64,000 bases of DNA from Cladorhizidae sp. MBARI D1340-BT2 (lineage: Eukaryota; Porifera; Demospongiae; Poecilosclerida; Cladorhizidae). The stretch spans positions 11,169,622 through 11,233,621 of the forward strand of contig JAQNBH010000015.1 in NCBI GenBank assembly GCA_028752905.1, read 5' to 3'. The translations under genes and the position numbers were made by a program. The notes below the pieces were generated by a model, which saw only the letters and a list, made by a program, of their open reading frames with translations, made no database searches and was not told the origin of the DNA. Shown one piece after another: positions 3,408 through 50,300 of the stretch (its first letter is position 1; each line of letters begins with the position of its first letter).

Positions 3408-4308
3408 CCAGTTACGAGTTATGACGACAAGAACAATGGTGCAATGTATTGTTTGAGTGAATGGGTTTCTAGAGCTTCTTGAGGTAACTTGTTCCACAAG
3501 GAGATAGCCAGGCACAAAAGAAAATTTGAATGCCTGTGTCTTAGAATATGGGTGACCCTGCCCATTCAGTTTGATAATTGAGGAAATTGCAGCTGGCCTT
3601 TCATGATTTTGAATGCCATAACATAGTTTCAGAAACATTCTGTGAAACTCAAGAGATGGGCCATTTTAGGTTCTGATAGTTGCAGGCCCATTGTTTTGTA
3701 CACATTTTGAGAGCAAACTTTTGGACTTTTTCTAGTTTTGCAACATCTCCGATGAGGTATGAGTCCCAAGCAGGTGTAGCATATTCCAGAGGTGGGTAAA
3801 CTAGAACATTATATATCTCCAGCATGCAGGCAGCATCTACAAGATTATAGAAACTTCTATATATAGTTTCCTAGTTTTACTGTCTATATGTGCAGGCCAT
3901 ATAGTTCCGGAGAGAGCAGCACACCAAGGTATTTGAAAGAGTTAACTTGGTTCAGAGTTGTTACCATTTAGAACAAGTTTAGAAGGCTGTAACACTTTAT
4001 TTTCCTTGATATCATCATGGTTTTATATTTAAAGGATTATTACAGCAGGCCCAGTAGTTGATAAGTTCAATGTCCATTTGTAGATTCAAGAAGTCATTCT
4101 TTTAATAGGCAGTCAGCATAGAGATTTAAGGTGCTACCATCTGAGAGAATAATGTCATTACATCATCTATAGAGATTAAAAAGAGATGGACCCAATACCG
4201 AACCCTGTGGAACACCAGAGGGTATAAGGACATCTCATAAAGACACACCACCTATATACCACTGCATGTTGCTTTCTGTTACATAAGAAACTCCTTATAC
4301 AGGCTAGG
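3408..4308 (-). pseudogene. LINE reverse transcriptase remnant, C-terminal part (interrupted by Gypsy)
   Basis: Read on the minus strand, about 4,150-4,240 gives a GVPQGSVLGPSLF-like reverse transcriptase motif in broken frames. About 3,425-3,530 gives ISLWNKLPQEALETHSLKQY, the classic C-terminal LWNxLP motif of CR1/Jockey-type LINE polymerases. The frame is broken many times, so it is an old pseudogene. It continues beyond the LTR element at 9,820-9,970, where the upstream TKAFDSTHQSLLDKL motif lies. The LTR element therefore split one LINE into two pieces. Confidence 0.75.
4304..4308. repeat. 5-bp target site duplication, left copy (CTAGG)
   Basis: CTAGG stands directly before the 5' LTR and is repeated exactly at 9,820-9,824 directly after the 3' LTR. 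This fixes the LTR ends and shows a clean integrase-type insertion. Confidence 0.9.
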
Positions 4309-4491
4309 TAGACAATAACCACCCTTACATGTATAAACATTGCTACGTGCGGTCCTTTACCTCACACACGACTCCTTTACCTCGCGCATGCATACTAGCA
4401 CACATTCATTCGCTATACACATTTCCTACTGATAACTTGTTGAACTCGTCCAGTTGCATCAGCTAGGTGAATAGCTTACTGAGCTTAACTA
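4309..4491 (+). repeat. 5' LTR of element A
   Basis: 183 bp, starting TAGACAATAACC and ending GCTTAACTA. It is matched by 9,637-9,819 with two differences near its positions 38-43. The self-priming partner site ATTCGCTATACACA lies at 4,408-4,421. If this marks the start of the transcript, as in Tf1, U3 would be about 99 bp. Confidence 0.95.
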
Positions 4492-4505
4492 TGTGTATAG
4501 CGAAT
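4492..4505 (+). promoter_or_regulatory. Self-priming primer-binding site of element A
   Basis: TGTGTATAGCGAAT begins at the first base after the 5' LTR, where a tRNA primer site would normally be. It does not start with TGG, so it does not fit a tRNA CCA end. It is the exact reverse complement of ATTCGCTATACACA at 4,408-4,421 inside the LTR. In Tf1 of fission yeast the 5' end of the transcript folds back to prime at such a site. Element B has the same arrangement with a different sequence. Confidence 0.8.
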
Positions 4506-5562: not shown

Positions 5563-8131
5563 GAGGGAACGGACAGCGGTGCGAAGGCTCGAATGCCCCG
5601 CCTTTGGCTCCACTTGCTCCTCCTGTGGTAGACAACACCACTACGCACAGATGTGCTGGTCGAGACAGGCGGAGCAAGAGAGCGCGATCTCCGAGACAGT
5701 GGCAACCATGACCGAGGGATCGCTACCACACCAATCGTGGGACTCCAGCACCATGACCTGGACCCAACGCCGCTCCCCGCCCCAACCCAACATGGAGGTG
5801 AGAGTCTCGTCCCACCGAGAGGATTTCAGGGCCCACGGCCACACCCTCAGGGTAGAAAGGCACAATATCGCCACCACAGCCCTAGCTGACACGGGGTGCC
5901 AGAGCTGTCTGGCAGGCCCAGCCCTCATGAAGGAACTGCTCCTTACTGACCACGACCTGGTCCCGGCCACGCTCCTCATGAGCTCCGCCAGTGGCAACCC
6001 CCTCCCCATCAAGGGTGCCGCTCTCCTCAGAATATCCACCCACTCAGGCCGTGAAACGCGGCAGATGGTATACTTCAGCGACCTGGCCTCCAAACTATAT
6101 CTCAGCCTGGCCAGCTGCATCGATCTGGGACTGATTCACACGGAGTTTCCCCTCTGCAAGCAGACGCCACCTTCGAGAGACGGCACGGATGCATGGGCGA
6201 CCCCGAATCGGCCCCCACCCCCTGAAGTCGCGAACCTGCAGACCAGAACTATGGACAGCCCCTCGACACCTGTGGTGAGCAAACCTTCCCATAACCAACC
6301 CAGACCCTGCTCATGCCCCACCCGTGCCCCGCCCCCTGTCAGACCCACCTCCCTGCCATTCCCTGGCACTGAGGCCAACCGTCACAGGCTTGAACGTCAC
6401 TTGCTGGACTTATACTCAGCAAGTGCGTTCAATGTCTGTGAGCATCAACCCCTTCCCATGATGTCAGGACCCCCCCTCTCCCTCAACATTGACCCCAACG
6501 CCATCCCCAAACCCTGCCACAACCCCATTGATATCCCAATTCATTGGCAGGACGAGGTGAAGGCCGGCCTTGACCGGGACGTCCGCCTCGGCGTGCTGGA
6601 GAAGGTCCCCCTGGGTACGCCCGTCACTTGGTGCCACCGTATGGTCATCTGCACCAAGAAGGACGGGTCACTCAGGAGGACCATCAACCTTCAACCACTC
6701 AACCAGCACGCCACGCGCGAGACCCATCACTGCCCATCCCCATTCCATCAGGCAAGAGCCGTTCCAGGCAACACCAAAAAGACCATCTTCGACGCCTGGA
6801 ACGGCTACCACTCCGTGGCCCTCAAAGAAGCTGACCGCCATTACACCACCTTCATCACCCCCTGGGGAAGGTACCGCTACTGCTCGGCCCCCCAGGGGTA
6901 CATCGCCTCAGGTGATGCCTACACGGCCAGGTACGATGCCCTCGTCGCCAACGTGATGTCGAAGACCAAATGCATCGACGACGCTCTTCTTTGGTCGGAC
7001 GACATCACGGGAGCATTCCACCAGGCGACTGAGTGGCTCCACATCTGTGCCGTGAACGGCATCACCCTGAACCCGCGCAAATTCCGCTTTGCCCAGGACA
7101 GAGTGGAGTTTGCCGGGTTCGACATCACCCCCTCCGAAGTACGACCAGCTCCGAGGTTCCTCAACTCTATCACCGACTTCCCCACCCCAGCAAGCATCAC
7201 GGACATCCGCGCCTGGTTCGGCTTGGTGAACCAGGTCGCCTATGCATTTTCCCTCACCACCACCATGTTGCCATTCAGGGCCCTCCTGAAGCCCACCTCA
7301 CCATTCCTCTGGACACCAGCCCTGGACCACGCGTTCCAGGCATCCAAGTCGGAGATTGTAGAGAAGATTCGCGACGGGGTGGCCATATTCGACCGAAACC
7401 GCCCAACCTGCCTGGCAACAGACTGGAGCAAAGACGGGATAGGGTACTGGCTATTCCAGAAGCACTGCCAGTGCCCATCCCGGGAGATCCTCTGTTGTCG
7501 GGAGGGTTGGCGTGTCACCCTTGTGGGTTCCAGGTTTACCCACCCTGCCGAGTCCCGCTACGCCCCTGTGGAGGGCGAGGCTCTGGCAGTGGCGGATGCC
7601 TTAGACAAAGCCCGGCACTTCGTCCTCGGGTGCAGCGATCTAGTGGTAGCTGTAGACCACAAGCCCCTCCTCAAACTGTTCGGGGATCGCTGCCTCGAGG
7701 ACATACCTAACCCACGCCTCCGCAACATCAAGGAGAAGACCCTCCGGTACCGGTTCCGGATGGTGTACATTCCTGGCGTTAAGAACCTCACCAGCGATGC
7801 CCTCTCACGCCACCCATCCGGAACCCGGACGCCTCCCCAGCTCCACCTCCCCGATGATGTTGCGAACCCCAGCCCAGCCTGTCCGGGCAGCCCTGCCTCC
7901 ACACTCTGCGCCATCACCAATACCACCTCTGCGCATATAGACGAGTCCGGCCTCTCCACCGCCGTCTGCAAGGCAATCTCTTCAATCCCCATCAGCTGGG
8001 AGCACCTCCAGACAGCCTCCGACGCTACCCTTCAGGACCTGATGTTTTATATCGAGCAAGGCACACCCGACAACAGGCAGATGCTCCCAGCCCCCATCAG
8101 GGACTACTTCTCAATCCTCCCACATCTCCAT
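5525..8131 (+). CDS. pol: Pol of element A: zinc knuckle, protease, reverse transcriptase, RNase H
   Basis: A long open frame. The second half of a zinc knuckle (CPAFGSTCSSCGRQHHYAQMC pattern in pieces) opens it, then the aspartic protease motif ADTGCQSC near 5,885-5,908. The reverse transcriptase (about 6,550-7,150) shows TPVTWCHRMVICTKKDGSLR, FDAWNGYHSVAL, APQGYIASGD and KCIDDALLW. The catalytic box is therefore Cys-Ile-Asp-Asp (6,971-6,982) in place of the usual Tyr/Phe-x-Asp-Asp. The same Cys occurs in element B, so it is a family trait. RNase H (about 7,405-7,810) shows CLATDWSKDG, VEGEALAVADAL, AVDHKPLLKLF and NLTSDALSRHP. The integrase follows in another frame. Confidence 0.9.
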
Positions 8132-8132
8132 C

Positions 8133-9239
8133 GTAGACGGTGTGGTATGCTACGGGGAACGACTTATCATCCCCACATCCCTGAGACCAACTTGCCTATC
8201 CACCCTCCATGCAGCCCACCAGGGCACGAGCGGGATGACTGCCAGAGCCACCTCCTCCCTGTACTGGCCGGGCATGCCCGCAGACATCGCTGCAACCAGG
8301 AACAGGTGCCCAGCATGCAACGGCAACGCCCCCTCTCAACCTGCCATGCCGTCAGTCACCCCAGAAGAGCCAGAGTACCCCTTCCAGCACATCTGTGCGG
8401 ATTACTTCCACCACGAAGGATCCGCATACCTTGTGCTGGTAGACCGGTACTCTGGCTGGCCAATCACCAAACCGGCCACCAACGGCGCAGCAGGCCTCGC
8501 CACCATACTGAGAGAGACATTCAGCACCTATGGCATCCCCACCACTCTAACCTCGGACGGCGGCCCAGAATTTGCCGCTCATACCACCAGGGAGCTCCTC
8601 ACCTCTTGGGGCATCCACCACCGCACCTCCTCTGCCTATAACCCACACTCCAATAACCGAGCAGAGACCGCGGTCAAATCCATGAAGAGGCTCATTTCGG
8701 GGAACACAGGACCAGGAGGCACACTCACCACCAAATTCCACAAGGCCCTCCTGGTCTACCGCAACAGCCCGAACCCAGACACAAGGATGTCACCCGCCGA
8801 ATGCGTATTTGGTCGCCCCATCCGTGATGCACTACCCGGCCTCCCCACGCGGCTGCGACAAACCCATGCATCAGAATCACAACTCCACCAGAGGCAACAA
8901 GCCAGATCCCATCGCCAAACCCTCGGCAGAGCACGCTGGGACGAACACACCCCCGGCCTTTCCCCCCTTCGTTGCGGTGACAGAGTATTCATCCAAAATC
9001 AGACAGGCCGCCACCCAACGAAGTGGGACAAAACTGGATTGGTCGTGGAGGTGCTCCAGTACCACCAATATGCCGTGAGGATGGACGGATCGGGCCGCCT
9101 CACCACAAGGAACAGACGATTCCTACGTCGTCAGACGGAGACTCAACCAGCCCAGCCGACTCAGCCGTCCGCTGCCTGGCACTCCTCCCATTGCATACCC
9201 CCCTCCCATACCACCAACCTATATTCCACCCCCCATTGA
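8133..9239 (+). CDS. int: Integrase of element A
   Basis: Carries the N-terminal zinc-binding pattern (LHAAHQGTSGM and RCPACNG), then the catalytic core with Asp in FQHICADYFHH, Asp in TLTSDGGPEF and Glu in NNRAETAVKSM. The C-terminal GPY/F-like module reads GDRVFIQNQTGRHPTKWD followed by DGSGRLTTRNRRFLRR. It is one reading frame off from RNase H. The break is at about 8,125-8,132, where one base appears to be missing by comparison with element B. The frame stops in a run of CCCCCTCCCATACCACC-type repeats. No chromodomain is seen. Confidence 0.88.
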   Translation, partial: VDGVVCYGERLIIPTSLRPTCLSTLHAAHQGTSGMTARATSSLYWPGMPADIAATRNRCPACNGNAPSQPAMPSVTPEEPEYPFQHICADYFHHEGSAYLVLVDRYSGWPITKPATNGAAGLATILRETFSTYGIPTTLTSDGGPEFAAHTTRELLTSWGIHHRTSSAYNPHSNNRAETAVKSMKRLISGNTGPGGTLTTKFHKALLVYRNSPNPDTRMSPAECVFGRPIRDALPGLPTRLRQTHASESQLHQRQQARSHRQTLGRARWDEHTPGLSPLRCGDRVFIQNQTGRHPTKWDKTGLVVEVLQYHQYAVRMDGSGRLTTRNRRFLRRQTETQPAQPTQPSAAWHSSHCIPPSHTTNLYSTPH

Positions 9240-9627: not shown

Positions 9628-9636
9628 GGGGGGAGA
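9628..9636 (+). promoter_or_regulatory. Polypurine tract of element A
   Basis: GGGGGGAGA directly before the 3' LTR. Element B has the identical nine bases directly before its own 3' LTR. This is the expected primer for plus-strand DNA synthesis. Confidence 0.85.
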
Positions 9637-9819
9637 TAGACAATAACCACCCTTACATGTATAAACATTGCTACGTACGGCCCTTTACCTCACACACGAC
9701 TCCTTTACCTCGCGCATGCATACTAGCACACATTCATTCGCTATACACATTTCCTACTGATAACTTGTTGAACTCGTCCAGTTGCATCAGCTAGGTGAAT
9801 AGCTTACTGAGCTTAACTA
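9637..9819 (+). repeat. 3' LTR of element A
   Basis: 183 bp, near-identical to 4,309-4,491. It is followed by CTAGG, the second target-site copy, and then by the continuation of the interrupted LINE. Confidence 0.95.
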
Positions 9820-9975
9820 CTAGGGTGAGACTGTCTGAACCACAGTCTGTCAGCTTGTCCAGGAGTGACTGATGAGTCGAGTCAAATGCCTTTGTTAAGA
9901 TGGTGCATAACTTCTGACCATATTCCAACACCTTAAGGGGGTGCTTTAGGTCAAACCACAAAAAACATGCCACAA
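9820..9975 (-). pseudogene. LINE reverse transcriptase remnant, upstream part
   Basis: The minus strand reads TKAFDSTHQSLLDKLTDCGS, the block A-type motif (DFSKAFDSVDH in relatives) of LINE reverse transcriptases. It joins in order and strand with the remnant at 3,408-4,308 once the LTR element is ignored. Confidence 0.75.
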
Positions 9976-20855: not shown

Positions 20856-20869
20856 TGACTTGGTAATAA

Positions 20870-28726: not shown

Positions 28727-28863
28727 ACAGAACATGCAGAACAAGGTGTGTGATGATAGGCTCAAGTAGCAGCTTTAATATCTCTGTCTCCCACTTAATC
28801 ACTGCCCCACCCCTTTCTGTTATTTTTCTCTCCACAGTGTCTTGAGGTTCTCAAGTTCAAGGT

Positions 28864-30235: not shown

Positions 30236-30239
30236 GACA

Positions 30240-30560: not shown

Positions 30561-30901
30561 GTGAAGACATCAGGAGGGTCTGCAGCCAGTAATTCCTTAT
30601 GTAGCAGGAATGAGTGAAGACATCAGGAGGGTCTGCAGCCAGTAATTCCTTATGTATGTAGCAGGAATGAGTGACGACATCAGGAGGGTCTGCAGCAAGT
30701 AATTCCTTATGTAGCAGGAATGAGAAGACATCAGGAGGGTCTGCAGCCAGTAATTCCTTATGTAGCAGGAATGAGTGAAGACATCTGGAGGGTCTGCAGC
30801 AAGTCATTCCTTATGTATGTAGCAAGAATGAGTGAAGATATCAGGAGGGTCTACAGCCAGTAATTCCTTGTGTAGCAGGAATGAATCGGGAGGGTCTGCA
30901 G
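30475..30901. repeat. About 53-bp tandem repeat derived from the Penelope-like segment, left copy
   Basis: About eight units containing GTAGCAGGAATGAGTGAAGA, CATCAGGAGGGTCTGCAGCC and AGTAATTCCTTAT. The unit encodes the PYVAGMSEDIRRVCSQ motif of the preceding remnant, so a piece of the element was amplified in tandem. The mirrored array is at 44,668-45,200. Confidence 0.88.
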
Positions 30902-31628
30902 GAAGTACAACATCTGAATAGCTTTCAGATCAGTAAAGACTCTAAGGGCACAATTTAATAGAGTGAAGGAAACTATTAACTATTATGCACTTATGTGATA
31001 AGGGAGATCAGCAGACAACTGGAGACCATAATGAAAGAACACTAAAATGTCTGGAAAAGTGTTGCTAAAGAAAAATCTGAACATCTTGTGTGAGGAAGGT
31101 ACCATCTTAGATCTTAGACCAGGCCAGGAAGTAGAAGGAGCTGAACATTACCCTAGCACTGGAGTGTGAGCAGTTCAATAGACATTGTGGAATGAACTTA
31201 CCTGGCTGAACTTACCTGGCTGTTGGGTGGCCACTCTCAAGAACCTAATTGATGCCACTACTACCATAATTATTTTTTTAATTGCTTATTTATTTTTGTT
31301 CAGTTATTACTATATAATTATGTTGTTGTTGTTATTATTACAATTGTTGTTATTTGACTGTGACTGGTTTTACGACGATAATTATTGTTATTATTATTTT
31401 ATATATAATTTTTTTAAGCTTATACTTATATCTATATTTATACTACATTACGTCATCTGTGGCTAATCTGATTGGTTAATAACTGTAGGTTCATAGATAC
31501 ACTTTTAACCGGATGTAGTTTAGCGCGTGCGCAATGTAGTATAAGCCTACGCGCCAGTGTAACCTACTCGTTTGCGCTATTAATGTTCACTGTTCATGAC
31601 GCTTTAATGTCATGATAATATTCACTTG

Positions 31629-31835
31629 TTACAATTTATATAGATGTTCTGTGCTGCAGTGTAACCTACTCGTTTGCGCGTAACACTGCAAAATATCTGG
31701 GCTCATAAATCCCTGAAGTTGAAGGAGTTTTTGATTATCAGTTGAAGGAAGTTGTTTCAACTCAGCTGCGTATTTATCTAGCAGTACTTTGTCAATAGCT
31801 GGGGCGCCTTGGCCAATAGTAAAAAATTCTTCCAT
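31629..31835 (-). CDS. Unidentified small ORF
   Basis: 68 codons starting MEEFFTIGQGAPAIDKVLLD with KYAAELKQLPSTDN. It has balanced composition, unlike the simple-sequence ORFs of this window. It lies in the left-only segment, downstream on the same strand of another unassigned ORF (31,998-32,291). The two could be pieces of one captured gene or element. The family is not recognised. Confidence 0.3.
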   Translation of the reverse strand: MEEFFTIGQGAPAIDKVLLDKYAAELKQLPSTDNQKLLQLQGFMSPDILQCYAQTSRLHCSTEHLYKL

Positions 31836-31997
31836 TTCTGTAGTTTAGCGCATGCGCAATAGTAAGATAGCCTACAGTTATGCGCCAGTATAACCTACTC
31901 GTTTGCTGTTACATTCCTCGGCTTCGCCTCGGGGTAACCGCAAACTCGGAGGCGCATAACCGACTCTTTTGACTTGTATAGGCTATCCTATACGTAT

Positions 31998-32315
31998 TTA
32001 GCTCAGAGAGCCCAGCACTGAAGCAGAATTGCCATGTTTGCACAGTGACCGAAAGGTACTGGTAAGCTCACGTATAGAAGAAGCCTTGCGTTTTTGGCCC
32101 GAAGTCGCACATGTCTCTACCACCACTGGAGTATGTAAAAATTCATTATATTTCCTTCTTAGTTTGTCTGTGGCACTACAGAGGGGATATGCGGCATTGG
32201 GGAGCCTGGATCCATCTCCACCTCCATGAATCCAGTTATATAGAGCGACTATAGTAGCATTATTTTTCCACTGCTGCCACATCCTGCAGCTAACTATAAT
32301 ATATATTAACCTCAC
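31998..32315 (-). CDS. Unidentified ORF
   Basis: Up to 105 codons. A likely start is MWQQWKNNATIVALYNWIHG at about 32,285. It continues with SATDKLRRKYNEFLHTPVVV and GQKRKASSIRELTSTF and ends at a stop. The composition is protein-like, with a basic GQKRKAS patch. It is present only in the left arm. No known family is recognised. Confidence 0.35.
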   Translation of the reverse strand: MRLIYIIVSCRMWQQWKNNATIVALYNWIHGGGDGSRLPNAAYPLCSATDKLRRKYNEFLHTPVVVETCATSGQKRKASSIRELTSTFRSLCKHGNSASVLGSLS

Positions 32316-32330
32316 TTGAGTCTTAGCATC

Positions 32331-32365
32331 CAGATGAAGGCTACAGCATCTAAATAGCCAAAATG
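32331..32365 (+). ncRNA. Degenerate hammerhead-like core, left copy
   Basis: CAGATGA, then GGCTA and TAGCC forming a 5-bp stem around CAGCATCTAAA, then AAAATG. Two core bases differ from the active consensus (CTGATGA and GAAA). It is mirrored at 44,628-44,668, where it directly follows the Penelope-derived array. It fits a decayed retroelement ribozyme. Confidence 0.3.
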
Positions 32366-32465
32366 TTGAGGAAAAGTTTGATATTGAGTCATTATATGTG
32401 TCCTAATTGCAGATCCTTGAAGATGAATTTCGAGATTATGATTATATGATTTAATGTTGCTATTG

Positions 32466-33501
32466 CTGAGCCTGTTAAGGCCATCACATATATAATACAG
32501 CACAGTGTGAAACTATTTAGTAACTAACCTAATAACAATCTATATTTTAAAAAGAAGTCAACAGTACTTAATTAATACAATTATCCACAATATTAAGTTA
32601 CGAGTGTCCCGCTGCTCAGGAAGGGGGGGACAGGAGTGGACCAAAGATCATTCCTCAGCTGACCATACAACAATTCCTTTCTCCTCTGCCACCACTTCCC
32701 TACCCAAAACATAACACACTCGCCCACCTCCTCCATCACTGCATCACTTACTCCCTCCACATCTTTCCCCAAAAGCAATGCCACCTTTCCATCCTTACTC
32801 ACTCTTCTTAATTCATCCAGCCACTGTCTTGCCCCTGCAATTCTGCGTACCTCATCTATCAGAACCAGCCGATCCCTCTCAAATTCCCCGCATGTCACCA
32901 AGAAATGTTCCACATCCTCCCCTGCTCCACTATCACACATTATACACCTCTCATCCCTAACTATCCCACATCTCTTCTTATCCTCTAACAACCCAGCTGA
33001 TGCAGTCCTCAGTCGAAATTGCAGCCGCACACCTTACTGACCATGCATGGCCCTCACATACCTCTCCACCCCTGCACCATTCTTTGCCAATTTATAATAA
33101 TTCAGCGTACTTTTCCCGTCTACTTCCTCCTCCCAGTCCTTCTCATTTCTCACCTTCACTTTCCCCTTCCACTTGCGCACTGACCCAGCCTCGTTGTTTA
33201 TCTTGTACTTTCTCCTCAAGATATCATATTCTTCCCACCATCCAATTCCTCCATCCTCTCGTAGTTTATTTACAACAACTTTAACCAATCTGCTCTGTTC
33301 CAACACCTCTAATCTCTTGCCAAACAAAACCTTCATCTCTTCCCTCCTCTCCTCTAGCTTCCTCCACCCCATATCTCCCCGTATTGCCACTCCTGCTACT
33401 GTATCACTTGCCCCCAACAGTCTCCTACCCACTCTCATCTGTGCTGACTCCAACTTCTTGCGAGCATTCCGTCCTCCTGTCCACCACACTTCGGCTGCAT
33501 G
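32466..33501 (-). mobile_element. LINE copy 2, 5'-truncated, minus strand
   Basis: Contains the C-terminal part of the LINE polyprotein in two frames (33,516-33,034 and 33,030-32,593) with one frameshift near 33,032. The C-terminal zinc motif reads CIMCDSGAGEDVEHFLVTC. Over about 0.9 kb it is almost identical to the end of LINE copy 1 on the other strand. The right arm holds an uninterrupted target at about 44,553-44,562, so it inserted in the left arm after the arms separated. Confidence 0.85.
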
Positions 33502-35149: not shown

Positions 35150-35154
35150 AATGG
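35150..35154. repeat. 5-bp target site duplication of element B, left copy (AATGG)
   Basis: AATGG is repeated at 40,518-40,522. Removing one copy and the element restores an uninterrupted LINE reverse transcriptase reading frame across the junction, which confirms the boundaries. Confidence 0.9.
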
Positions 35155-35322
35155 TAGATAATAAGGGGATCGCCCGCGATGCCACTGAATCAGAATTGGT
35201 AATTCACAAATAACAATGTGTATACAGACTGGCTAGTAATGTGATGCGCATGCGTACATGTAAGACAATGATAATAGGTACGGATCGATTGTGTGTGAGT
35301 GTATGTAGTATAGTATTGTCTA
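35155..35322 (-). repeat. 3' LTR of element B
   Basis: On the minus strand it begins TAGACAATACTA and ends TTATTATCTA. It is preceded on that strand by the polypurine tract GGGGGGAGA (35,323-35,331). The internal self-priming partner site is preserved. Confidence 0.9.
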
Positions 35323-35365
35323 TCTCCCCCCAAGTCTTTGGCCAGTATGGTTGGAGACTGAGTAG

Positions 35366-36809
35366 TTAGTATGTTCCAGAGTAGTAGTAGTCTGGTTTCC
35401 GATGGGTTCTCTTTGATCTTCTAAGTCCAGGGTCTGGGGTGGCTGTCTGGGTGTAGTGGAGTCTCCTAGGCTGGGAAACCGTTGCTTCTTTGGGGGTTGG
35501 TTCCTGGTTCAGGGTCCGGTTTGTTCCAGGGGTGGCGATGGTGGGCGTGGTGTCCATGAGTGTGATAGGTGTTGGGAGGTTTCCTGTCGGGATGTGGTCC
35601 GAGTGGGTTTGGTCTTTGGTTTTAGTGGGTGTTGGCATCATCGGTGTGGTTTTGGGGTTTCCTGTCGGGTTGTGGTCCGAGTGGGTTCGGTCTTCGGTTT
35701 TAGTGGGTGTTGGTGTTGTTTTGGTGATTGGTGGTGGAGCTTGGGTGGTGGTCTTGGTTCTGTGAAGGCTTTGTGCGATATCTTGGGTGATGGTTAGTTT
35801 GGCTGCGGGTTGTTGGTGTGGGGTGTATCTTCTCAAGAATTTCCTGTTCCTGAAGGAGACTCTCCCTGAGCCGTCCATCTTCACCAGGTACTGGTGGTAC
35901 TGCCTCACTTCGATCACCATGCCGGTGCGATCCCATTTGTTGGGGTGGTGACCGGTCTGGTTTTGTACCCTGACAGTGTCTCCTGTCTGTAGTTGAGTGA
36001 GGGGTTTAGTATGTTCGCTCCAGCGTTCTGGTTGATGTGATGTCGGTTTCGGAGTGCCTGTTCTCTTAGGTTTAGTGTGTTGCTCCAGGTCTGGTGTGGT
36101 ATGTATTTCCCTTGGAGGACTGGTATCATGTTGGTCGTCCGAATACGCATTCAGCAGGTGACTGTTTTGTGGAGGGGTCTGGGCTGTTCCGGTATTGGAG
36201 CATAGCCTTCTGAAATGTGTCAATTGAGAGGTCTCCGTCTGTGCCTGTGTTCCCGGATATTAGTCTCTTGATGGTTTTTACTCCGATTTCCGCCCTGCAG
36301 TTACTGTGAGGGTAGGCAACTGAGCTCAGCCTGTGGTTTACCCCCCATATCTTCAAGAAGTTTGAGGTGATGTGTGACGTGAACTCAGGGCCACCGTCTG
36401 TGGCTAGCTCATCGGGGATGCCATACGTTGAGAAGGTCTTTCTCAGGACATCGGTGAGGCCCTTTGCACAGTCTCTTGATCTCTCCACAATAGGCCAGTT
36501 GGAGTATCGGTCAATCACCACTAAGTAGTTTTTCCCTAGGTGGTGGAAAAAGTCAGCACATATGTACTGGAAGGGGTACACTGGTAGGGCTGGTGGGGTG
36601 GGGGGCATGGCTGCCTGGGATGGGGCCATCCCATTGCAGATCCTGCAGTCCGTTCTGGTAGCTGCAATGTCGGCAGTGATCCCTGGCCAGAATATGGATG
36701 ACTCTGCCTTGGATATCATTGCGGATGTACCTTGGTGAGCTGCATGGAGGGCTGCTAGGCATGTTGGTCGAAGTGCTGGCGGGATGATTAGTCGGTCTTT
36801 GTACACCAC
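35366..36809 (-). pseudogene. Integrase and C-terminal tail of element B
   Basis: From 36,809: LHAAHQGTSAM, a CRICNG zinc pattern, then CADFFHH, LATDGGPEF and NCRAEIGVKTIKRL with the Asp-Asp-Glu residues in place. After CVFGRPT (about 36,126) the sequence continues in two other frames: TNMIPVLQGKYIPHQ, then TVRVQNQTGHHPNKWDRTG and DGSGRVSFRNRKFLRRY, ending GLRRSKRTHRKPDYYYSG. At least two frameshifts break it. Confidence 0.85.
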
Positions 36810-36922: not shown

Positions 36923-38479
36923 TCATGTCGTCATCTGAAGATGTAGCTGATAGGCTGTATGGAGTCCATGGTCGATGTGAGTGATTCTTGGATTGTGGTG
37001 TCCAAGTGGTCGGATGTGTGACTCATCTGTGGAGATGCCGGCGATGAGGTTCGTTGGGATCGTGGTTGTGGGTCTCAGGGTTTGGTCCGAGGCAGAGTGT
37101 GCATCGTCTGTTAGGGTCATCTTGTCTGGGTCCTGTGTGCCGGTGGGGTACCTTGAGAGGGCGTCTGGTGTTTTGTTCTTGACGCCTGGGACGTGGATCA
37201 TTTTGAATTTGTAAGGCAGGATTTTTTCTTTCAGATTGCGGAGTCTTGTGTTGGTTATCTGCTCCAGGGATCTGTCTCCGAATATCTTGACGAGGGGTTT
37301 GTGGTCGACCGCAATGCAGCCTAGGACGAAGTGGCGAGCCTTGTCCAGGGCGTCTGCCACGGCGAGGGCCTCTCCCTCAATTGGAGCATAACGAGACTCT
37401 GCAGCGTGTGTGAATCGTGACCAGACTAGGGTGACCTTCCATCTGGTTTGGCAGCAAAACACATCGTTGGATGGGCACTGGCAGTGCTTCTGGAATAGCC
37501 ACTACCCTATTCCGTTCTTTGACCAGTCGGTTGCTAGACAAGTTGGTTTGGTTTTGTCGTAGATCTTCACCCCTTCTTGAATTTCCCTGACGATGGCTAA
37601 CTTGGAGTTGTTGAATGCCGATTGGTGTGATTCCTTCCAGGCCGAGGGTTTCAGTAGGTCCCTGAATGGTTCCATGGCCGATGTCATGCTAAATGTATAG
37701 GAGACTTGGTTTACCAGTCCGAACCAGGATCTTACATCTGTAAGGTTTTTAGTGGTCGGGAAGTCAGTGATGGCACGGATGTATTTTCTGCATGGCTTGA
37801 CCGTTGTAGGGGTGATCTCGAATCTGGCGAACTCCACACTGTCCTCCGCGAAATGGAATTTCTCGGGGTTGAGGGTGACACTGTTGGTGGCACAGATGTG
37901 GAGCCATTCCACTGCCTGGGAGTATGCATCGGAGATGGTGTCGGACCATAATAGAGTGTCGTCTATGCACTTTGTCTTCTTGTTGATGTGGGACACTATG
38001 CCGTCATACCTGCTGGTGTACCCATCCCCTGAGGCGATGTAGCCCTGGGGGGCGGTGCAGTAGCGGTATCACCCCCATGGTGTAATGAAGGAGGTGAAGT
38101 GTCTGTCGTCCTCATGGAGTGGTACGGAGTGGTAGCCATTCCAGGCGTCAAATATAGTCTTCTTTGTTTTCATTGGTACTGATCTTGCCTGGTGGAATGG
38201 GGATTGGGTGTGGTGTGTCTCCCTTGTGGCGTGTTGATTGAGGGCCTGGAAGTCAATGGTTCGACGAAGGGAGCCATTCTTTTTTGGGCAGATTACCATC
38301 CTGTGGCACCATGTAACTGGGGTTCCAATGGGGACTTTTTCGAGGACGCCAAGCCTGACGTCCCTGTCCAGTCCAGCCTTCACTTCGTCTTGCCAGTGGA
38401 GGGGGACCGGGATTGGGTTGTGGTGGGCAGTTGGTGTTGCGAGGGGGTCGATCCTTAGCCGCAGGGGTGGGCCAGTCAT
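36923..38479 (-). pseudogene. Reverse transcriptase and RNase H of element B
   Basis: One frame with two stops. It has TPVTWCHRMVICPKKNGSLR, FDAWNGYHSVPL, then a TGA after TPWG (about 38,069), then KCIDDTLLW (Cys-Ile-Asp-Asp, as in element A), DVRSWFGLVNQVSY, CLATDWSKNGIG followed by TAG (about 37,507), and RNase H with EGEALAVADAL and AVDHKPLVKIFGD. The stops are single-base changes when compared with element A. Confidence 0.88.
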
Positions 38480-40124: not shown

Positions 40125-40165
40125 CCTACATAGTGGTGTGCTCCAATTGGGGTATTTCGATCTCC

Positions 40166-40349
40166 TCTCATAGTCGCCTCTTTCTGATAGGTGGGGGACC
40201 TCCTGGGGCTCTTCAACGTGTTGCCCTTGGAGTCTGTATACACATAGGTAATAAGGGGATCGCCCTCTCCTCTCTTGGTCGCCTCTTTCTGATAGGTGGG
40301 GGACCTCCTGGGGCTCTTCAACGTGTTGCCCTTGGAGTCTGTATACACA
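40166..40349. repeat. 105-bp tandem duplication beside the 5' LTR of element B
   Basis: The GTCGCCTCTTTCTGATAGG block occurs at 40,173 and again at 40,278, with a copy of the primer site and a truncated LTR end (GGTAATAAGGGGATCGCCC) between them. The duplication therefore includes the LTR/leader junction. Confidence 0.85.
40336..40349 (-). promoter_or_regulatory. Self-priming primer-binding site of element B
   Basis: On the minus strand TGTGTATACAGACT starts at the first base after the 5' LTR. It is the exact reverse complement of AGTCTGTATACACA inside the same LTR (plus coordinates 40,412-40,425). The first eight bases equal those of element A and the last six differ, and in each element the LTR partner differs in step. 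Confidence 0.8.
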
Positions 40350-40517
40350 TAGATAATAAGGGGATCACCCTCTTTGATCGCGATGCCACTGAATCAGAAT
40401 TGGTAATTCAATGTGTATACAGACTGGCTAGTAATGTGATGCGCATGCATACATGTAAGACAATGATAATAGGTACGGATCGATTGTGTATGAGTGTATG
40501 TAGTATAGTATTGTCTA
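40350..40517 (-). repeat. 5' LTR of element B
   Basis: 168 bp on the minus strand. Compared with the 3' LTR, it has one gained block (about 9 bases near CTCTTTGAT) and one lost block (CAAATAACA), plus scattered substitutions. Confidence 0.9.
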
Positions 40518-40522
40518 AATGG

Positions 40523-40957: not shown

Positions 40958-41041
40958 TATGGATGAGTAGAGTGAATGGGCAGGTGGAAGTAGACAGAGG
41001 AAGAATGGTGTGGGAGCTTCTAGCGAGACCTAGTATGGAGC

Positions 41042-41893
41042 ATGCAGCCGAAGTGTGTTGGACAGGAGGACGGAATGCTTGCAAGAAGTTGGAAGTCAGC
41101 ACATATGAGAGTGGGTAGGAGACTGTTGGGGGCAAGTAACACAGTAGCAGGAGTTGCAATACGGGGAGATATGTGGTGGAGGAAGCTAGAGGAGAGGAGG
41201 GAAGAGATGAAGGTTTTGTTTGGCAAGAGATTAGAGGTGTTGGAACAGAGCAGATTGGTAAAAGTTGTTGTAAATAAACTATGAGAGGATGGAGGAATTG
41301 GATGGTGGGAAGAATATGAGATCTTGAGGAGAAAGTATGAGATAAACAATGAGGTTGGGTCAGTGCGCAAGTGGAAGGAGAAAGTGAAGGTGAGAAATGA
41401 GAAGGAGGAAGTAGACGGAAAGAGTACGCTGAATTATTATAAATCGGCAAAGAATCGTGCAGGAGTGGAGAGGTATGTGAGGTCCATGCATGGTCAGGAA
41501 GGTGTGCGGCTGCAATTTCGACTGAGGACTGCATCAGCTGGGTTGTTAGAGGATAAGAAGAGATGTTGGATAGTTAGGGATGAGAGGTGTATAATGTGTG
41601 ACAGTGGAGCAGGGGAGGATGTGGAACATTTCTTGGTGACATGCGGGGAATTTGAGAGGGATCGGCTGGTACTGATGGATGAGGTACGCAGAATTGTAGG
41701 GGCAAGACAGTGGCTGGATAAATTAAGAAGAGTGAGTAAGGATGGAAAGGTGGCATTGCTTTTGGGGAAAGATGTGGAGGGAGTAAATGATGCAGTGATG
41801 GAGGAGGTGGGCGAGTTTGTTATGTATTGGGTAGGGAAGTGGTGGCAGAGGAGAAAGGAACTGTTGTCTGGTGAGCTGAGGAATGATCTTTAG
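41042..41893 (+). pseudogene. LINE C-terminal region with CCHC-like motif
   Basis: Continues with RVGRRLLGASNTVAGVAIRG, then (41,324-41,893) a frame ending with CIMCDSGAGEDVEHFLVTCG, a Cys-x2-Cys...His-x4-Cys pattern common near the end of LINE proteins. A stop at 41,282-41,284 interrupts the frame. It is nearly identical to LINE copy 2. Confidence 0.85.
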
Positions 41894-42049
41894 TCCACTC
41901 CCGTCTCCCCCTCCTTGAGCAGCGGGACACTCGTAACTTAATATTGTGGATAATTTTATTAATTAAGTACTGTTGACTTCTTTTTTAAAATATAGATTGT
42001 TATTAGGTTAGTTACTACACAGTGCTGTAATATATTAAATCATTGATTG

Positions 42050-42998
42050 TTGTTGTGTTGTTTGTTTCTTTGTTTGTTTTCAGATTTTTCACTTGCTTTG
42101 TTGGCTTACTATTTTAGTGGAAGTTGTAAGTGCCTTTTTGGTGCTAATATCATTTAGGCATTCAGGAAGCTGCTGATGTGAGTAGATCTTGTAACACCAG
42201 AAAGTTTTAGCTGAATGCAAGTTTTTGTTCGAGTTTTTTTTTGTTTGTTTTTTCAGCTGGCGAGTGGGAGGTTGCCACCATTCCGCTAAATGACTGTCAA
42301 GTTCTGGCTAGCTAGCTAATTAAGACTAGCAATACTTTTACAAAACTCCAGGTCAGTTCTGACAGATGATGTGATGCAGGTGCTATTGCCTGTTTTTGCA
42401 GCTGTGTGGTCCGGTACATTAATAGTACGTAGGTAAAGTAACTGGTTAATTTTCAGGCATATATAGATAGCTCTAAGTTCCTCGAGCTCTGCTAGCAATA
42501 GCCTTCTGTAACAGTGTCGACCAAGAAGTAACTTCAAGTTTCCTAATACTAGAAGTCTTACAAAGACCCATGAGTGATTGTAGCTATTCCTCAGATTGGA
42601 CAAAATCAAGTCATATTGACCATGTTGTATCAAGGGAAGAGGACTCTCTACTTGTCCTTGGTCTGTTCACAAGTTCTTTACTGCTCTGAAATATGGTGTC
42701 CATGCCTGATTAAGGACATAAAAAGATTAGAAAAGGTTCAGCATTGGGCAGCAAAGTTTATACTGATGACTATAAGATGGACTACCGAGTGAACATGCTT
42801 CCTCTTATGAATCCGAGAGTGCTTAAAAATCCTTCTGCTCGCTTTAACACTTATGACTTGGTGTCCTTCAGCAACTGCTCCAAAAGTTCTAAATCATTCA
42901 TGAAGGTGAGCATACTCCAAGACAAATACAAGGAAACTAATAGGAGAGCTAAGCTTGGGAATTCCTGCCTACAATTGACTTGGAAGAATCCATGCATG
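42050..42998 (+). pseudogene. Older LINE remnant in the palindrome arm, left copy
   Basis: SQVLYCSEIWCPCLIKDIKR followed by LEKVQHWAAKFI (about 42,660-42,770) is the thumb-side motif (YASxVWxPxLxKDIxxLExVQRRATK) of CR1/Jockey-like LINEs. YRVNMLPLMNPRVL and the C-terminal blocks follow in broken frames. It is mirrored at 43,662-44,500, so it predates the arms. It is unrelated to LINE copies 1 and 2 in detail. Confidence 0.72.
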
Positions 42999-43153
42999 CT
43001 TGCCATTAAGAAACACATTGGTTTGACTCAAATCATACATGTACTTTAATTTCATGTGTCCCTCCTGTGCTAGATGTTCAACCGGGAAGTTCAGTCACTC
43101 TCTTAATTAAATATTGTTATTATTAATTGTTATTGTTGTTGTTGTTGTTGTTG

Positions 43154-43197
<44 letters not shown>

Positions 43198-43217
43198 GTT
43201 ATTACTACTACTACTAC

Positions 43218-43277
<60 letters not shown>

Positions 43278-43364
43278 TACTATATGTACTACTAAATACT
43301 ATTATTAACATTATCATCACCACCTTTATTATTATTATTGTTGTTGTTATTATTATTATTGCTG

Positions 43365-43412
<48 letters not shown>

Positions 43413-43661
43413 TTATAATATTTTCTTAACCTGCATGTGAAGGCTGCTATTCCTCATTACAGTTCTATAGTATGTACCTGGTTTTCTAAGTTTGAAGAGT
43501 TTTTATGTCAAGCGAGACCTACTTATATATTATATATATCAGCCAACTAAGTTTGAGCCATCAAATAATAAGGTCCAGCATGTACCAACCTGAGGTTTCT
43601 TGCTCAGTTATTGTAAAAAGTTATTGGAATTACCATTAAAATATGACAGTTAATGACATGC
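42999..43661. repeat. Central spacer of the palindrome with microsatellites
   Basis: Non-mirrored DNA between the arms. TTG, TTA and TAC/ACT trinucleotide tracts cover about 43,110-43,420. The part after it matches the start of this window (1-254) in direct orientation. The leucine- and asparagine-only reading frames here are microsatellite artefacts. Confidence 0.85.
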
Positions 43662-44500
43662 GCATGGATTCTTCCAAGTCAATTGTAGGCAGAGAATTCC
43701 AAAGCTTAGCTCTCCTATTAAAAAAGAAGAGTTTCCTTGTATTTGTCTTGGAGTATGCTCACCTTCATGAATGATTTAGAACTTTTGGAGCAGTTGCTGA
43801 AGGACACCAAGTCATAAGTGTTAAAGTGAGCAGAAGGATTTTTAAGTGCTCTCGGATTCATAAGAGGAAGCATGTTCACTCTGTAGTCCATCTTATAGTC
43901 ATCAGTGTAAACTTTGCTGCCCAATGCTGAACCTATTCTAATCTTTTTATGTCCTTAATCAGGCATGGACACCATATTTTAGAGCAGTAAAGAACTACCA
44001 AGGACAAGTAGAGAGTCCTCTTCCCTTGATACAACATGGTCAATATGACTTGATTTTGTCCAATCTGAGGAATAGCTCATGGGTCTTTGTGAGAAGACTG
44101 CATTAGAACTCCAGTATTAGGAAACCTGAAGTTACTTCTTGGTCGACACTGTTATGGAAGGCTAGTGCTAGCAGAGCTCGAGGAACTTAGAGCTATCTAT
44201 ATATGCCTGAAAATAGTCATGCGCTCACATCATCAATATTAGTAATAGTTCTGTCAGAACTGACCTGGAGTTTATATGCTAGTCTTAATCAGCTATATAG
44301 CTAGCCAGAACTTGACAGTCATTTAGCAATGGTGGCAACCTCCCACTTGCCCGCTAAAAAAAAAATGGTGTTACAAGATCTTCTACTCATGTCAGCAGGC
44401 ACTTACAACTTCCACTAAAATAGTAAGCCAACAAAGCAAAAAAAAATAGTGAAAAATCTGAAAACAAACAAAGAAACAAACAACACAACAACATTATTAC
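43662..44500 (-). pseudogene. Older LINE remnant in the palindrome arm, right copy
   Basis: Mirror of 42,050-42,998, including MDYRVNMLPLMNPRALKNPS on the minus strand and a NRRAKLWNSLP-like segment split by a short insertion (AGAAGAGTTTCC area). Several indels separate it from the left copy. Confidence 0.7.
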
Positions 44501-44667
44501 TTTTCAATCATTTCACTTATTATTATTATTATTTTTAAAGTCATTTGAAAGCCATCATATAATCTCGAAATTCAGATCTGCAATTAGGACACATATAGCT
44601 AATGACTCTCAATATCAAACTTTTCCTCAACATTTTGGCTATTTAAATGCTGTAGCCTTCATCTGGC

Positions 44668-45200
44668 TGCAGACCCCCCTGATGTCTTCACTCATTCCTG
44701 CTATATATATGCATACATAAGGAATTACTGGCTGCAGACCCTCCAGATGTCTTCACTCATTCCTGCTACATACATAAGGAATTACTGGCTGCAGACCCTC
44801 CTGATGTCTTCACTCATTCCTGCTACATAACGAATTACTGGCTGCAGACCCCCCTGATGTCTTCCCTCATTCTGCTACAATACATAAGGAATTATATACT
44901 GGCTGCAGACCCTCCTGATGTCTTCACTCATTCCTGCTACATAAGGAATTATATACTGGCTGCAGACCCTCCTGATGTCTTCACTCATTCCTGCTACATA
45001 CATAAGGAATTATATACTGGCTGCAGACCTTCCTGATGTCTTCACTCATTCCTGCTACATAAGGAATTATATACTGGCTGCAGACCCTCCTGATGTCTTC
45101 ACTCATTCCTGCTATATATATACATACTTAAGGAATTATATACTGGCTGCAGACCCTCCTGATGTCTTCACTCATTCCTGCTACATAAGGAATTACTGGC
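44668..45200. repeat. About 53-bp tandem repeat derived from the Penelope-like segment, right copy
   Basis: Nine to ten units with CTGGCTGCAGACCCTCCTGA and TGTCTTCACTCATTCCTGCT. Mirror of 30,475-30,901 with more units. It directly meets the hammerhead-like motif at 44,628-44,668, the arrangement expected before the left arm gained its 1.4-kb segment. Confidence 0.88.
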
Positions 45201-45420
45201 ATAGGATCCTTCTCAGACTCCTGATTGTGATAGTCGGTATCGGTGTCCTTATCTTCCTTCCTGCATTTAGATGCAGCTACCTGCAGAGAAAAGGTTGATG
45301 AAACCATTGTCAAAAAAACTTCTTCATACAAGCTTCTTCTTTCCTCTGTTACTACTGCCCTGGCTATATCACAAAAGCAACTCATGGTATAGCTACCCGT
45401 CTTCTCATGGGCGGATCTAG
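45128..45420 (-). pseudogene. Penelope-like retroelement remnant, right copy
   Basis: Better preserved than the left copy: DIARAVVTEERRSLYEEVFL, then VAASKCRKEDKDTDTDYHNQ and IPYVAGMSEDIRRVCSQYII in one frame on the minus strand. No nuclease domain follows. Confidence 0.5.
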
Positions 45421-47122
45421 GGGGGTCAGAGGGGGTTCTGTGTTTGCAAACCGCCCCCCCCCCCTCCCAATCAATCCTACAACCACATGCATTGAAAATG
45501 CATATATATTATAGCAAGCAAGAGCAATAACAAGCATCTTGGAATGGGTTTTTAGAACACTCACAAGATGTTCTGTAGAGTTCTTCAAAAGTAAGCACTA
45601 CCCTTGTTCTGTGTGTGGTCTTGCTCATCATCACTGATTCATCAGTTACACTCATCATGATGCAATTCATAGTGCAAGTCCTAGTTGTGTGCTAGGCAGC
45701 TGATTCTGTGCAATATAATATATAGCATGCATGAGAAAGGATCATGCAGGAATCAGAGGCCGAAGAAAGCAACCTAGAGACTGCATCTGCAAAGGGATTA
45801 CTTTTTGCAGACAGGCCAATTGTCATCATAGTATTAATGTCAAACAAAAATAGCCGGGTCTTGGTTCAGCATTAGCTACTTGCTGATTTTCCGAGTATAT
45901 CAGCAGCAGCCAATTCACTTGACAACTGCCATTGTTAATGCTACGTTATCGACATCACTAACCCCTTCCTCATCAATGGCAGTGACTGCTTCGACTGCTC
46001 CTTCTACGTCACCAAATGCCAAAATGGTAATCAATGCTGATTCACCACCCACATGGGCAGATTGACCTAGGAACTCTACTACAGGCTGCATGTGTCCTAG
46101 GACAGGTTGAGGGCATTGGTAAATGAAGTCACCAATGATCGGAAAAGCAACATCTTACACTTTCAAACCGGCTTCTTCTAAAAATCTTCACTCTTCAAGT
46201 CACAAAGCTAGGCAAAACCTGGAATGTTTCATTCCAACTTAGATGGCTAGAACAATTTCCATGTGTCTCTTCAGGAGAGATTGGTAGGCATTAGTCAAAG
46301 TAGTATTTTGGAATTGTAATAGATGAGGTATTATCCCTACCAGAAGCCATACTCCAAAGCACTTGGCAAGGATGTGGGCCATGAGAAAACTTTGATGCAT
46401 TTCATGCAGCTGAGAGAGCAGACCTTTTTCTAAGAAATCTCAATAAGAAGGTAGATGCAAAACGGATGGAGAGAGATCAGCAAGTGGGTGAAAACAAACA
46501 CATCTTAGAGCAGTTGTCTTAGCAGTCAAATTTTGCTGATCAGCCACCCAACTCAGGACCTGTACCTTATTCTTCTTTTCATTACGCTTCAAGGTATCAC
46601 ACACTTGTGCACCATCTCCACCTCGAGTCCTGACCTGCAACACTCCACCACTAAAGGATGTCATCATCACATGACAAAAGCACAAGCATGGCATAGGCAA
46701 AGCATGTCTTGTCCAGATAGAATGATGCTATGATCCCCCTCCCCCCCTCGAGGAGGTGGTATTGTATATGGAAGTGAAACACTGCCATTATGCAAGATGA
46801 GCATGATGCAAGATGAGGCTGAAACAGGAGTACACTTCTACAGGAGTGGAAGGGGACTTTAAACCTCTACCTATTCAGCATGTTTCCCTCCATAAGTGAA
46901 TGCTTCATGTACTGGAATTCAAAATCCATGACGCAGAGCTTATGATTTACTGTACCCTTCACACCTGTGGAAGTTATTTCAAAGATTCAACAAAAAGAGT
47001 ATATTCTTGGACTATCAATACACTTGGTTTATGTTGCCCACATACAAAACTATACTGTAACTATATACAGTCTATTTCTACATCTTAATACACAGAACTG
47101 GAGTTGAGGAGACAAAAACAGG

Positions 47123-47200
47123 AAATAACTCAATATAACATCAAAGAAATGCCAGGCAAAAGCCTTTAAGCAAATCTCATCATGAAAGTTATATCTTGAA
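47123..47200 (-). promoter_or_regulatory. SECIS element (form 2) of the right selenoprotein W
   Basis: On the minus strand ATGA (47,183-47,180), stem TGAGATTTGC, apical AA, mini-helix AGGC-TTTT-GCCT and closing TTTGAT (ending 47,140) are all identical to the left copy. Flanking bases differ slightly (ATATAAC in place of GTGTAAC), which suggests the core is kept by selection. Confidence 0.85.
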
Positions 47201-47336
47201 CTTGAGAACCTCAAGACACTGTGGAGAGAAAAATAACAGAAAGGGGAGGGGCAGGTGAGAGTGATTAAGTGGGAGACAGAGATATTAAAGCTGCTACTTG
47301 AGCCTATCATCACACACCTTGTTCTGCATGCTCTGT

Positions 47337-50300
47337 TTATTTACAAGCCGCACGGACAGCGTCAATGATTTTGTCCGTCTTAGCTTTGCTGTCAACATAC
47401 CCATCACCATCCTATGGGAAAAGATGCATAAAGAAGTCACAACAAGGATGCATATGGGACAGTCGCTCAAGGGTTGTGGTGTGAGGGTTATAATACATGC
47501 ATGTCCCCCTCCCCAATTGTTTGTCCTTTATCATATTCACGCCTTGCTATGCGCATGTTACATGGCTATGCATGTTACATGGCTAGAATTGATCCGAGAG
47601 GAGTGGGACTACAACTTAGGCCTGCAGGGAACCTGAATGACCAACAAAACCATGTCCATCACACTATCCACACTCCTACCTAATGTTCTTTAATTCATGT
47701 CCACTTCAATGGCATCAGCCACAATTGCTACAATGACTGACATCTTGTAGGGTGGATGAACCCAGGCATAGCCCACACATACAGCGACAAGCTTAGTTGC
47801 TGCAGCATTGTATATAATTATATGAACCACCCCCACCACTTGTACCACATGTTCTGAAAAGAGCAGTGGACAATCTTTGTCTTTCCAAAAGGCCTCTTAC
47901 AATATCCGCAGGTTGGGAGAGATGTTCAGAAATCTTGGGCAGATCAACTAAAGAACATCATCTGCCTGAACTTCTAGCCATGACCAATAGGTATAATTGA
48001 CCTTTGACCTGATCCACATGGGATTTGGCACTACACCTTATGCACATGCATGCACATGCATAATATTTGACCACACCCTTTATCATTAAACCCCATCCAC
48101 TGCTAAAAGGGGCCAAAGCTGTTCAGGTCGTTGCAGCACCTTCAGCCTTGTCCCAGGATGACCCCACCCCTCAAATATTGAAACCCTGATAAGACTAGCC
48201 TTAACTATCACACTAACCTTCTTAGAATGGACAAGACTCCCTGCCACAGTCACCTCAAAATGCCCAGTTACTCCTGGAGTCTTCTCACCAACCTGAAATA
48301 AAACAACAATAGAAATTATAATGTCAATTGCAGTGCATTGAGTGACCCTGCCCAAGTAATATGCCGGGTCAGAGACATGCAAACATGGAGGTATTATTAT
48401 CCAGCAGTATATCCAGGGACAGCCCATAATCAATAGTGACCATGGCAGTGTAAAATGACTGCTCCCAACTTGACCCAATGTCTTTAGATCAGCGTCATAG
48501 TGATCACAAAACCACAGGTGTGAGTTACCACCAGTTGGGTTGGTCCTGCTATAGAATATTTGGAAGAGTCTCAACTACCAAAGGAGATCCCTTACCCAAC
48601 ACAGAATATTTTTATCATTTTTACGAGAACGTGGATTAGTTATTAGGAGATTTTGGGTAGGATACAGATTCTCTCTAGTCTCAAAGACCATACCTCAGCA
48701 AGGCGTGCAAATGTCTCACACGTATAAGCTCCTTGACTAGAGATACATGTCTCACCCTCAACCGAGCCTACTAATGAATCTAATCACACCCAAGTAAAAT
48801 ATAAAATACATGCCAGGCTGTGGCAAAGTGGGCCGACAAAGTGACACCACATGTTTACATGACAACCAGACGACTCGCACATGCATAGTCCCATACTAAC
48901 CAGATATGACTTTACAATGCAGAGGACCACAGGATATATCTACTCCAAATATGCTTCGTTCTAATCAACAAAAAAATTATGTGTCAAAACCCATTTCTCA
49001 ATTTTTAATGATGCATCTTGGACGACGTCGATAATTTCCATTTTTGAATTTCCTTTTGTCTGTTGAACATTTCTGTTCTAACCTCATGATCAAATCAACG
49101 GTTACCGATTTCCTCGATTATAATGCACCTTCGAATACAACGCACACTATTTACTTGAAAGAAATAGAATGCACCCCCAATTAGACCGAAGTGTGAAAGC
49201 TCCAGAGAAAATACTGTCTGGAGTGGGCGAAGAAAGTTTGGCCACCTGTCACACCTGATAAATCCTTCAAAAGTTGCGACATTTTAGTCGGGACACATGG
49301 GTCACATGATGACAGCATTCACTGCGTGTGGGTACCATCCGTGTGGGCACCATCCGTGTGGGCACCATCCGTGTGGGCACCATCCGTGTGGGCACCATCC
49401 GTGTGGGCACCATCCGTATGGGCACCATCCGTGTAGGCACCATCTGTGTGGGCACCATCCGTGTGGGCACCATCCGTGTGGGCACCATCCGTGTGGGCAC
49501 CATCCATGTGGGCACCATCCGTGTGGGCACCATCTGTGTGGGCACCATCTGTGTGGGCACCATCTGTGTGGCACCATCCGTGTGGGCACCATCCGTCCGT
49601 GTGGGCACCATCCGTGTGGGCACCATCTGTGTGGGCACCATCCGTGTGGGCACCATCTGTGTGGGCACCATCTGTGTAGGCACCATCTGTGTGGCGCCAT
49701 CCGTGTGGGCACCATCCGTGTGGGCACCATCCGTATAGGTACCATCCGTGTGGGCACCATCTGTGTGGGCACCATCCGTGTGGGCACCATCTGTGTGGGT
49801 ACCATCCGTGTGGGCACCATCCGTATAGGTACCATCTGTATGGGCACCATCCGTATGGGCACTATTTGTATGGGGAATAAGTTTTAGGCCGCGAAGACAA
49901 ATTCGATTTGTTTTAACATTGAGGTCCGCCCATAAGACAGCATTAAGTAGATATTTCAATATCTGGTGTCCTGCACAAACAGACCTACTATACGGGAAGC
50001 CTCAATTGCTTCACCCTGCTTGGCACTGGGTACTAATTTGTACTAACCATCAATCAGTCCAAGGATAAGTGAGGGTAAACACACAGTGGCATACTTCATT
50101 ATGCACTACGCAGTAAGCACGCCCCTTTACATGTACACCAATCATTATACAAGTAGTATCAGGGAGTGTACTAGCACTCGCTGTATTGGTCTGACCAACT
50201 CAGAACTCACATTGGTAGCTATTTAACTGCCTAAGTGGTGCTCTCGGCTGTTACTAACTCCAAAACGAATCCCAGTGTGCCTTGGATCCTTCACTAAGGT

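Follow-up and report, generated by a model that had tools for sequence, protein, structure and literature searches.

Self-priming of reverse transcription has been described in fungal and vertebrate Tf1/sushi elements, in other fungal elements, and in the Tcn1 and TAR elements (PMC6934838, PMC12440569, PMC3601003, PMC6317226, PMC4600332, PMC7175516, PMC10085805). In Tf1 of Schizosaccharomyces pombe, pairing involves the first 11 bases of the RNA, and RNase H cleavage falls between bases 11 and 12 (PMC7175516); related fission-yeast elements have their own primer and binding site, and the LTRs of Tf1-type elements shown in the same paper end in CA (PMC10085805). Plant elements with predicted self-primers are Tcn1 (Gypsy) and TAR (Copia), in which the 5′ LTR holds a complement to a stretch 0–5 bases after the LTR (PMC6317226). 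One Tcn1 element, however, reportedly showed no sign of either tRNA priming or self-priming (PMC2864245), and dictyostelid Skipper elements are described as being without such complements (PMC5006619). For self-priming in a chromodomain-less animal Gypsy lineage, we found no description in the full-text literature, outside which subscription papers mostly lie, and this does not prove absence.

The window, i.e., the whole analyzed stretch of 64,000 nucleotides of sponge DNA, contains two elements, A and B, that very probably are Ty3/Gypsy LTR retrotransposons self-priming their reverse transcription from their own RNA in the manner of Tf1; judging by their sequences, copying in these elements probably starts without a tRNA borrowed from the cell. 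As in Tf1/sushi, the site abutting the 5′ LTR is complementary to the start of the RNA, here a presumed start; unlike in Tf1, the helix comprises 14–15 bases plus one reaching into the LTR, as against 11, and, unlike in Tf1/sushi, the LTRs end in TA, not CA, and no chromodomain is detected. The pairs also resemble those of Tcn1 and TAR, being of the kind sought in the plant survey, that is, at least 10 bases long and starting within 0–5 bases of the LTR (PMC6317226). Tcn1 elements, however, belong to the chromoviruses, as relatives of Tf1/sushi, and TAR is a Copia lineage, whereas the elements described here are Gypsy with no detected chromodomain.

Structure of the Elements

The features of element A are as follows.

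4304..4308, + strand, target-site duplication CTAGG, 5′ side
4309..4491, + strand, 5′ LTR, 183 bp, TAGACAAT...TTAACTA
4408..4421, + strand, LTR partner ATTCGCTATACACA, copy in the 5′ LTR
4492..4505, + strand, putative primer binding site TGTGTATAGCGAAT
6506..7705, + strand, reverse transcriptase (RT) / RNase H region (RVT_1 and RNase H models)
8142..9239, + strand, integrase (H2C2 and rve), in a frame different from that of RT
9628..9636, + strand, polypurine tract GGGGGGAGA, before the 3′ LTR
9637..9819, + strand, 3′ LTR
9736..9749, + strand, LTR partner, copy in the 3′ LTR
9820..9824, + strand, target-site duplication CTAGG, 3′ side

Element B has the following features.

40518..40522, − strand, target-site duplication CCATT, 5′ side
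40350..40517, − strand, 5′ LTR, 168 bp, TAGACAAT...TTATCTA
40412..40425, − strand, LTR partner, putative self-primer and start of R, copy in the 5′ LTR
40336..40349, − strand, putative primer binding site TGTGTATACAGACT, abutting the 5′ LTR
40161..40373, − strand, tandem duplication, 105 bp, covering the LTR end, binding site, and leader
37256..38434, − strand, RT / RNase H region (tblastn)
36126..36809, − strand, integrase (H2C2 and rve; domain models)
35323..35331, − strand, polypurine tract GGGGGGAGA, before the 3′ LTR
35155..35322, − strand, 3′ LTR
35217..35230, − strand, LTR partner, copy in the 3′ LTR, identical to the 5′ copy
35150..35154, − strand, target-site duplication CCATT, 3′ side

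The two LTRs of A differ by 2 substitutions in 183 positions; those of B, aligned over 159 positions with 18 further gap columns, differ by 3 substitutions. The RT proteins of A and B share 70.5% amino acid identity over 400 positions (tblastn). Between A and B, a 23-base match runs from the purine tract into the start of the LTR; beyond it, a search of the window reveals no cross-match between the LTRs, hence, A and B are different families. Both share with a third family (L001, see below) the LTR ends TAG...CTA, not TG...CA, and the GACTTGGGGGG tract before the 3′ LTR.

The two units of the 105-bp duplication in B, aligned over 105 positions, show 4 substitutions. The LTR contributes its last 24 bases to the duplication (91.7% identical), which also holds a second intact copy of the 14-base binding site at 40231–40244; our guess is that the duplication arose by a template switch during priming.

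Ty3/Gypsy elements are characterized by the pol order RT–RNase H–integrase and by target-site duplications of 4–6 bp. The complete order is seen in A, and in B and L001 RT is followed by integrase, in the same order as in A; the duplications of A and B are 5 bp each, while the contig of L001 is one in which no target-site duplication is visible.

Complementarity and Covariation of the Putative Priming Pair

In element B, the 14 bases following the 5′ LTR are perfectly complementary to sites in both its LTRs. The preliminary description had reported the pairing with the LTR site at 40,412–40,425; these coordinates are exact, and the 3′ LTR matches as well. Element A has its own perfect 14-base pair, of another sequence, also with partners in both LTRs. 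In all three families with a visible junction of LTR and interior, the pair lies at offset 0 after the LTR, with lengths of 14 (A), 14 (B), and 15 (L001) bases, and all five LTR partner copies pair perfectly, without a G–U pair or a mismatch.

Between A and B, the binding site changes at positions 9, 10, and 13 (3 of 14) only, and not in all of the last six bases, as had been thought; all three changes are compensated, which bears out the earlier observation that the LTR partner had changed in step in each element. Within the first 14 positions, L001 differs from A at 9 and from B at 11, and again every change is compensated. Over the three families together, variation affects 11 of these 14 positions, and complementarity is never broken: the two sites change together. 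The RNA duplex energies are −19.5, −20.3, and −22.5 kcal/mol for cognate pairs, and −1.8 to −10.1 kcal/mol for non-cognate ones.

A chance match is rejected for each of the three elements, as none of 5000 dinucleotide shuffles of the respective LTR reaches the observed match length; the best shuffled matches are 11, 12, and 10 bases for A, B, and L001, against the observed 14, 14, and 15. As a control over the window, we counted positions having a 14-base complement within the preceding 183 bases (71 on the + strand and 73 on the − strand) or 168 bases (71 on either strand). The first 20 positions listed on the + strand comprise the site of A and the run 24804–24821; the first 20 on the − strand comprise the runs 52432–52438 and 52453–52465, the site of B not being among them, and the listed positions are mostly neighbours of each other. 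Since 14-base hairpins thus occur elsewhere in this repeat-rich window, the case rests on the position of the pair and its repetition across families.

A Third Family and Further Relatives

A scan of prokaryote genome contigs yielded L001, a contig of 5200 bases with 69% RT identity to A, deposited under a bacterial symbiont of Escarpia laminata, a tubeworm (assembly QGON01); we infer that it is host DNA inside the symbiont assembly. Its ends overlap by 77 bases, as would be expected of a repeated element collapsed to a single LTR, or of a circle. The LTR is placed, by analogy with the ends in A and B, at 3218–3341 (TAGAGGGT...TTATCTA), and the sequence directly after it, TGATCGCAACTCAAT, is a perfect 15-base complement of LTR positions 3275–3289; this LTR–interior junction is an assembled one, L001 being a short-read contig with overlapping ends. 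By coordinates, the reading frame stays open from upstream of the binding site, through the overlap, as far as the end of pol. The collection of further family members had been proposed initially as a check, and L001 passes it, retaining complementarity together with an open frame, as one family and not a survey.

The same scan gave a more distant contig, L002, with 27% RT identity; it has no internal repeat and so no LTR–interior junction, and is therefore outside the count of three families. Both contigs are of the animal retrotransposon type within a bacterial symbiont assembly, QGON01, and apparently are host DNA.

In the related tubeworm literature, Gypsy families, five of them called novel, are reported from Lamellibrachia luymesi; L001 is likened to them by host and class, as these are vestimentiferan Ty3/Gypsy elements, and the accessible text names the binding site merely as a general part of such elements (PMC8220671).

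Among viral contigs, protein scans and an exact 20-base pattern gave no relative, and a gapped pattern with 15 fixed bases gave 26 stretches, with an RT or integrase relative in none of the 26 (tblastn). The RT of A has no match among plasmids and phages (tblastn). Protein searches produced 1913 RT matches and 738 integrase matches, 120 of each being listed; named relatives among the matches listed come from Mytilus, Elysia, Petrolisthes, an eel, scallops, Haliotis, and sea urchins. Alignment A1 (RT) includes 16 relatives taken from the 120 listed of 1913, and alignment A2 (integrase) includes 39 from the 120 listed of 738, plus L001 and A. The RT catalytic motif, usually YxDD in Gypsy, is CVDD in the consensus of the 17 sequences aligned in A1; L001 has CIDD.

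Helix Borders and Proposed Mechanism

In all three families, the helix extends by one base into the terminal A of the LTR. Its LTR-side end coincides with a C/A step (TTC/ATT, GCC/AGT, and CTC/ATT in the three families, the slash marking the border), as expected if the RNA begins with this A; the C/A step could be the transcription start. The distance from the first base of the partner to the LTR end is 84, 76, and 67 bases in A, B, and L001, respectively. The likeness to an initiator is partial: of two initiator consensus sequences, TCAKTY at the first base of the partner fits A only, and YYANWYY fits B only, as one of four such sites in the LTR of B; L001 fits neither. When RNAs extending from the partner to past the binding site are folded, with the ends chosen by us so that the RNA starts at the LTR partner, the primer helix closes the fold, with z-scores of −3.18, −3.41, and −4.55.

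The binding sites of the three families start with TGT, TGT, and TGA, not with TGG. Where the 3′ end of a tRNA serves as the primer, a binding site starting with TGG is expected.

Self-priming is supported by the perfect match and its precise placement, the covariation, the helix borders, and the lack of a TGG start, seen in three families. The RNA would start at the LTR site, which would then be the start of R; its first 14–15 bases would fold back onto the site abutting the 5′ LTR and form the duplex; RNase H would cleave the RNA at the end of the duplex; and the freed 5′ piece of RNA would prime minus-strand DNA synthesis into U5. RT and RNase H domains are present.

Selection, Copying, and Alternatives to Self-Priming

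The preliminary description read the pairs as self-priming and as strong evidence for selection on base pairing. Self-priming is well supported; for selection, “strong evidence” is too much to claim from two elements and three compensated pairs. A rival to selection, though not to self-priming, and one that stands even when the third family is added, is that the pair is kept matched by copying; we regard this as about evenly balanced. The primer would stay joined to the minus strand and be copied into the plus strand; a new binding site, being copied from a primer complementary to it and identical to the RNA start, would track every LTR mutation. Retroviral binding sites are likewise copied from their tRNA. 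The absence of any imperfect pair in the three families and five LTR partner copies agrees with copying, as does the coincidence of the helix borders with the presumed primer ends. Copying also fits Tf1, whose self primer of reverse transcription is reportedly, by the title of a paper, not removed. The covariation supports pairing and fits selection and copying alike, and both may act together.

A hairpin whose role lies not in priming but in RNA packaging, dimerisation, translation, or poly(A) control is improbable. Leader hairpins often have such roles, and the folded leader is stable; however, a role of this kind leaves unexplained why one arm directly follows the LTR in all three families, exactly where minus-strand synthesis must begin, and it does not account for the missing TGG either. 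Still less probable, at the margin of what we would consider, is use of the binding site by a host tRNA (its 3′ end or an internal cut) with an incidental LTR match: most Ty3/Gypsy elements do prime from tRNA, but the 3′-end motif TGG, by which tRNA use was judged, is absent from the start in 3 of 3 families, and each has a 14–15 base match to its own LTR.

Relation to Tf1/sushi and Other Elements

A mark of Tf1/sushi, complementarity between an element’s own LTR and the site that follows its 5′ LTR, is present in A, B, and L001. Membership of the three in Tf1/sushi is nevertheless not supported, since no chromodomain is detected and the LTRs end in CTA. The two further duplexes that flank the primer duplex in the “pretzel” of Tf1 did not stand out in a crude two-strand test, in which 135 to 481 of 500 shuffles were as good for U5:leader and U5:U5 duplexes. 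A domain search for the chromodomain (Chromo, PF00385) gave none in A 8142–9239 or B 35366–36223 (E up to 0.01), nor in L001 2201–3118 (E up to 0.1), and a Chromo domain was found in 0 of the 240 relatives listed of the 1913 and 738 matches, many of these being too short to show one; a strongly diverged chromodomain in these elements is possible.

In the structure model of the L001 integrase, the C-terminus shows strands at 205–254, which in this model may be read as SH3-like, followed by a low-confidence tail (pTM 0.45). The 50 Foldseek matches listed for the model are retroviral integrases except for one Ty3 integrase. The A2 profile has 37 matches among PDB sequences, namely retroviral integrases, Ty3, and one DNA-binding protein 7d, and none of the 37 is named Tf1.

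LTR ends other than TG...CA are also known from Troyka of aquatic animals, with CG...CG ends and 3-bp target duplications (PMC12440569); identity with Troyka is rejected, as the elements here have TAG...CTA ends and a 5 bp duplication. LTRs beginning with TA are likewise not unique to these elements, since TARE1 of tomato has them (PMC3701649); unlike the elements here, it is a plant Copia-like element.

Tentatively, and with slightly less than even confidence, we consider A, B, and L001 as part of a separate chromodomain-less Ty3/Gypsy lineage spread across marine invertebrates, with TAG...CTA ends, in which Tf1-like self-priming has arisen or persisted outside Tf1/sushi, and the primer serves to rewrite the binding site at every round of replication, so that the pair stays matched while its sequence drifts freely. 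If so, the range of self-priming would widen to animal elements in which no chromodomain is detected; such elements would be independent of tRNA primers, which would account for the failure of searches for tRNA-complementary sites in them, and they would offer many natural pairs for testing selection against rewriting of priming sites.

Surroundings in the Window

The window contains a large diverged inverted duplication (17307–33501 and 41041–60108), with aligned pieces about 84–97% identical; its centre is near 37–39 kb, and element B sits in its spacer. Arrays of a 38-bp satellite occur in opposite orientation at 11613–20828 (about 245 copies) and 56575–60084 (about 92 copies). Arrays of 43-bp and 15-bp units are mirrored in the same way, at 10904–11349 and 60439–61218, and at 26230–26735 and 49325–49862, respectively.
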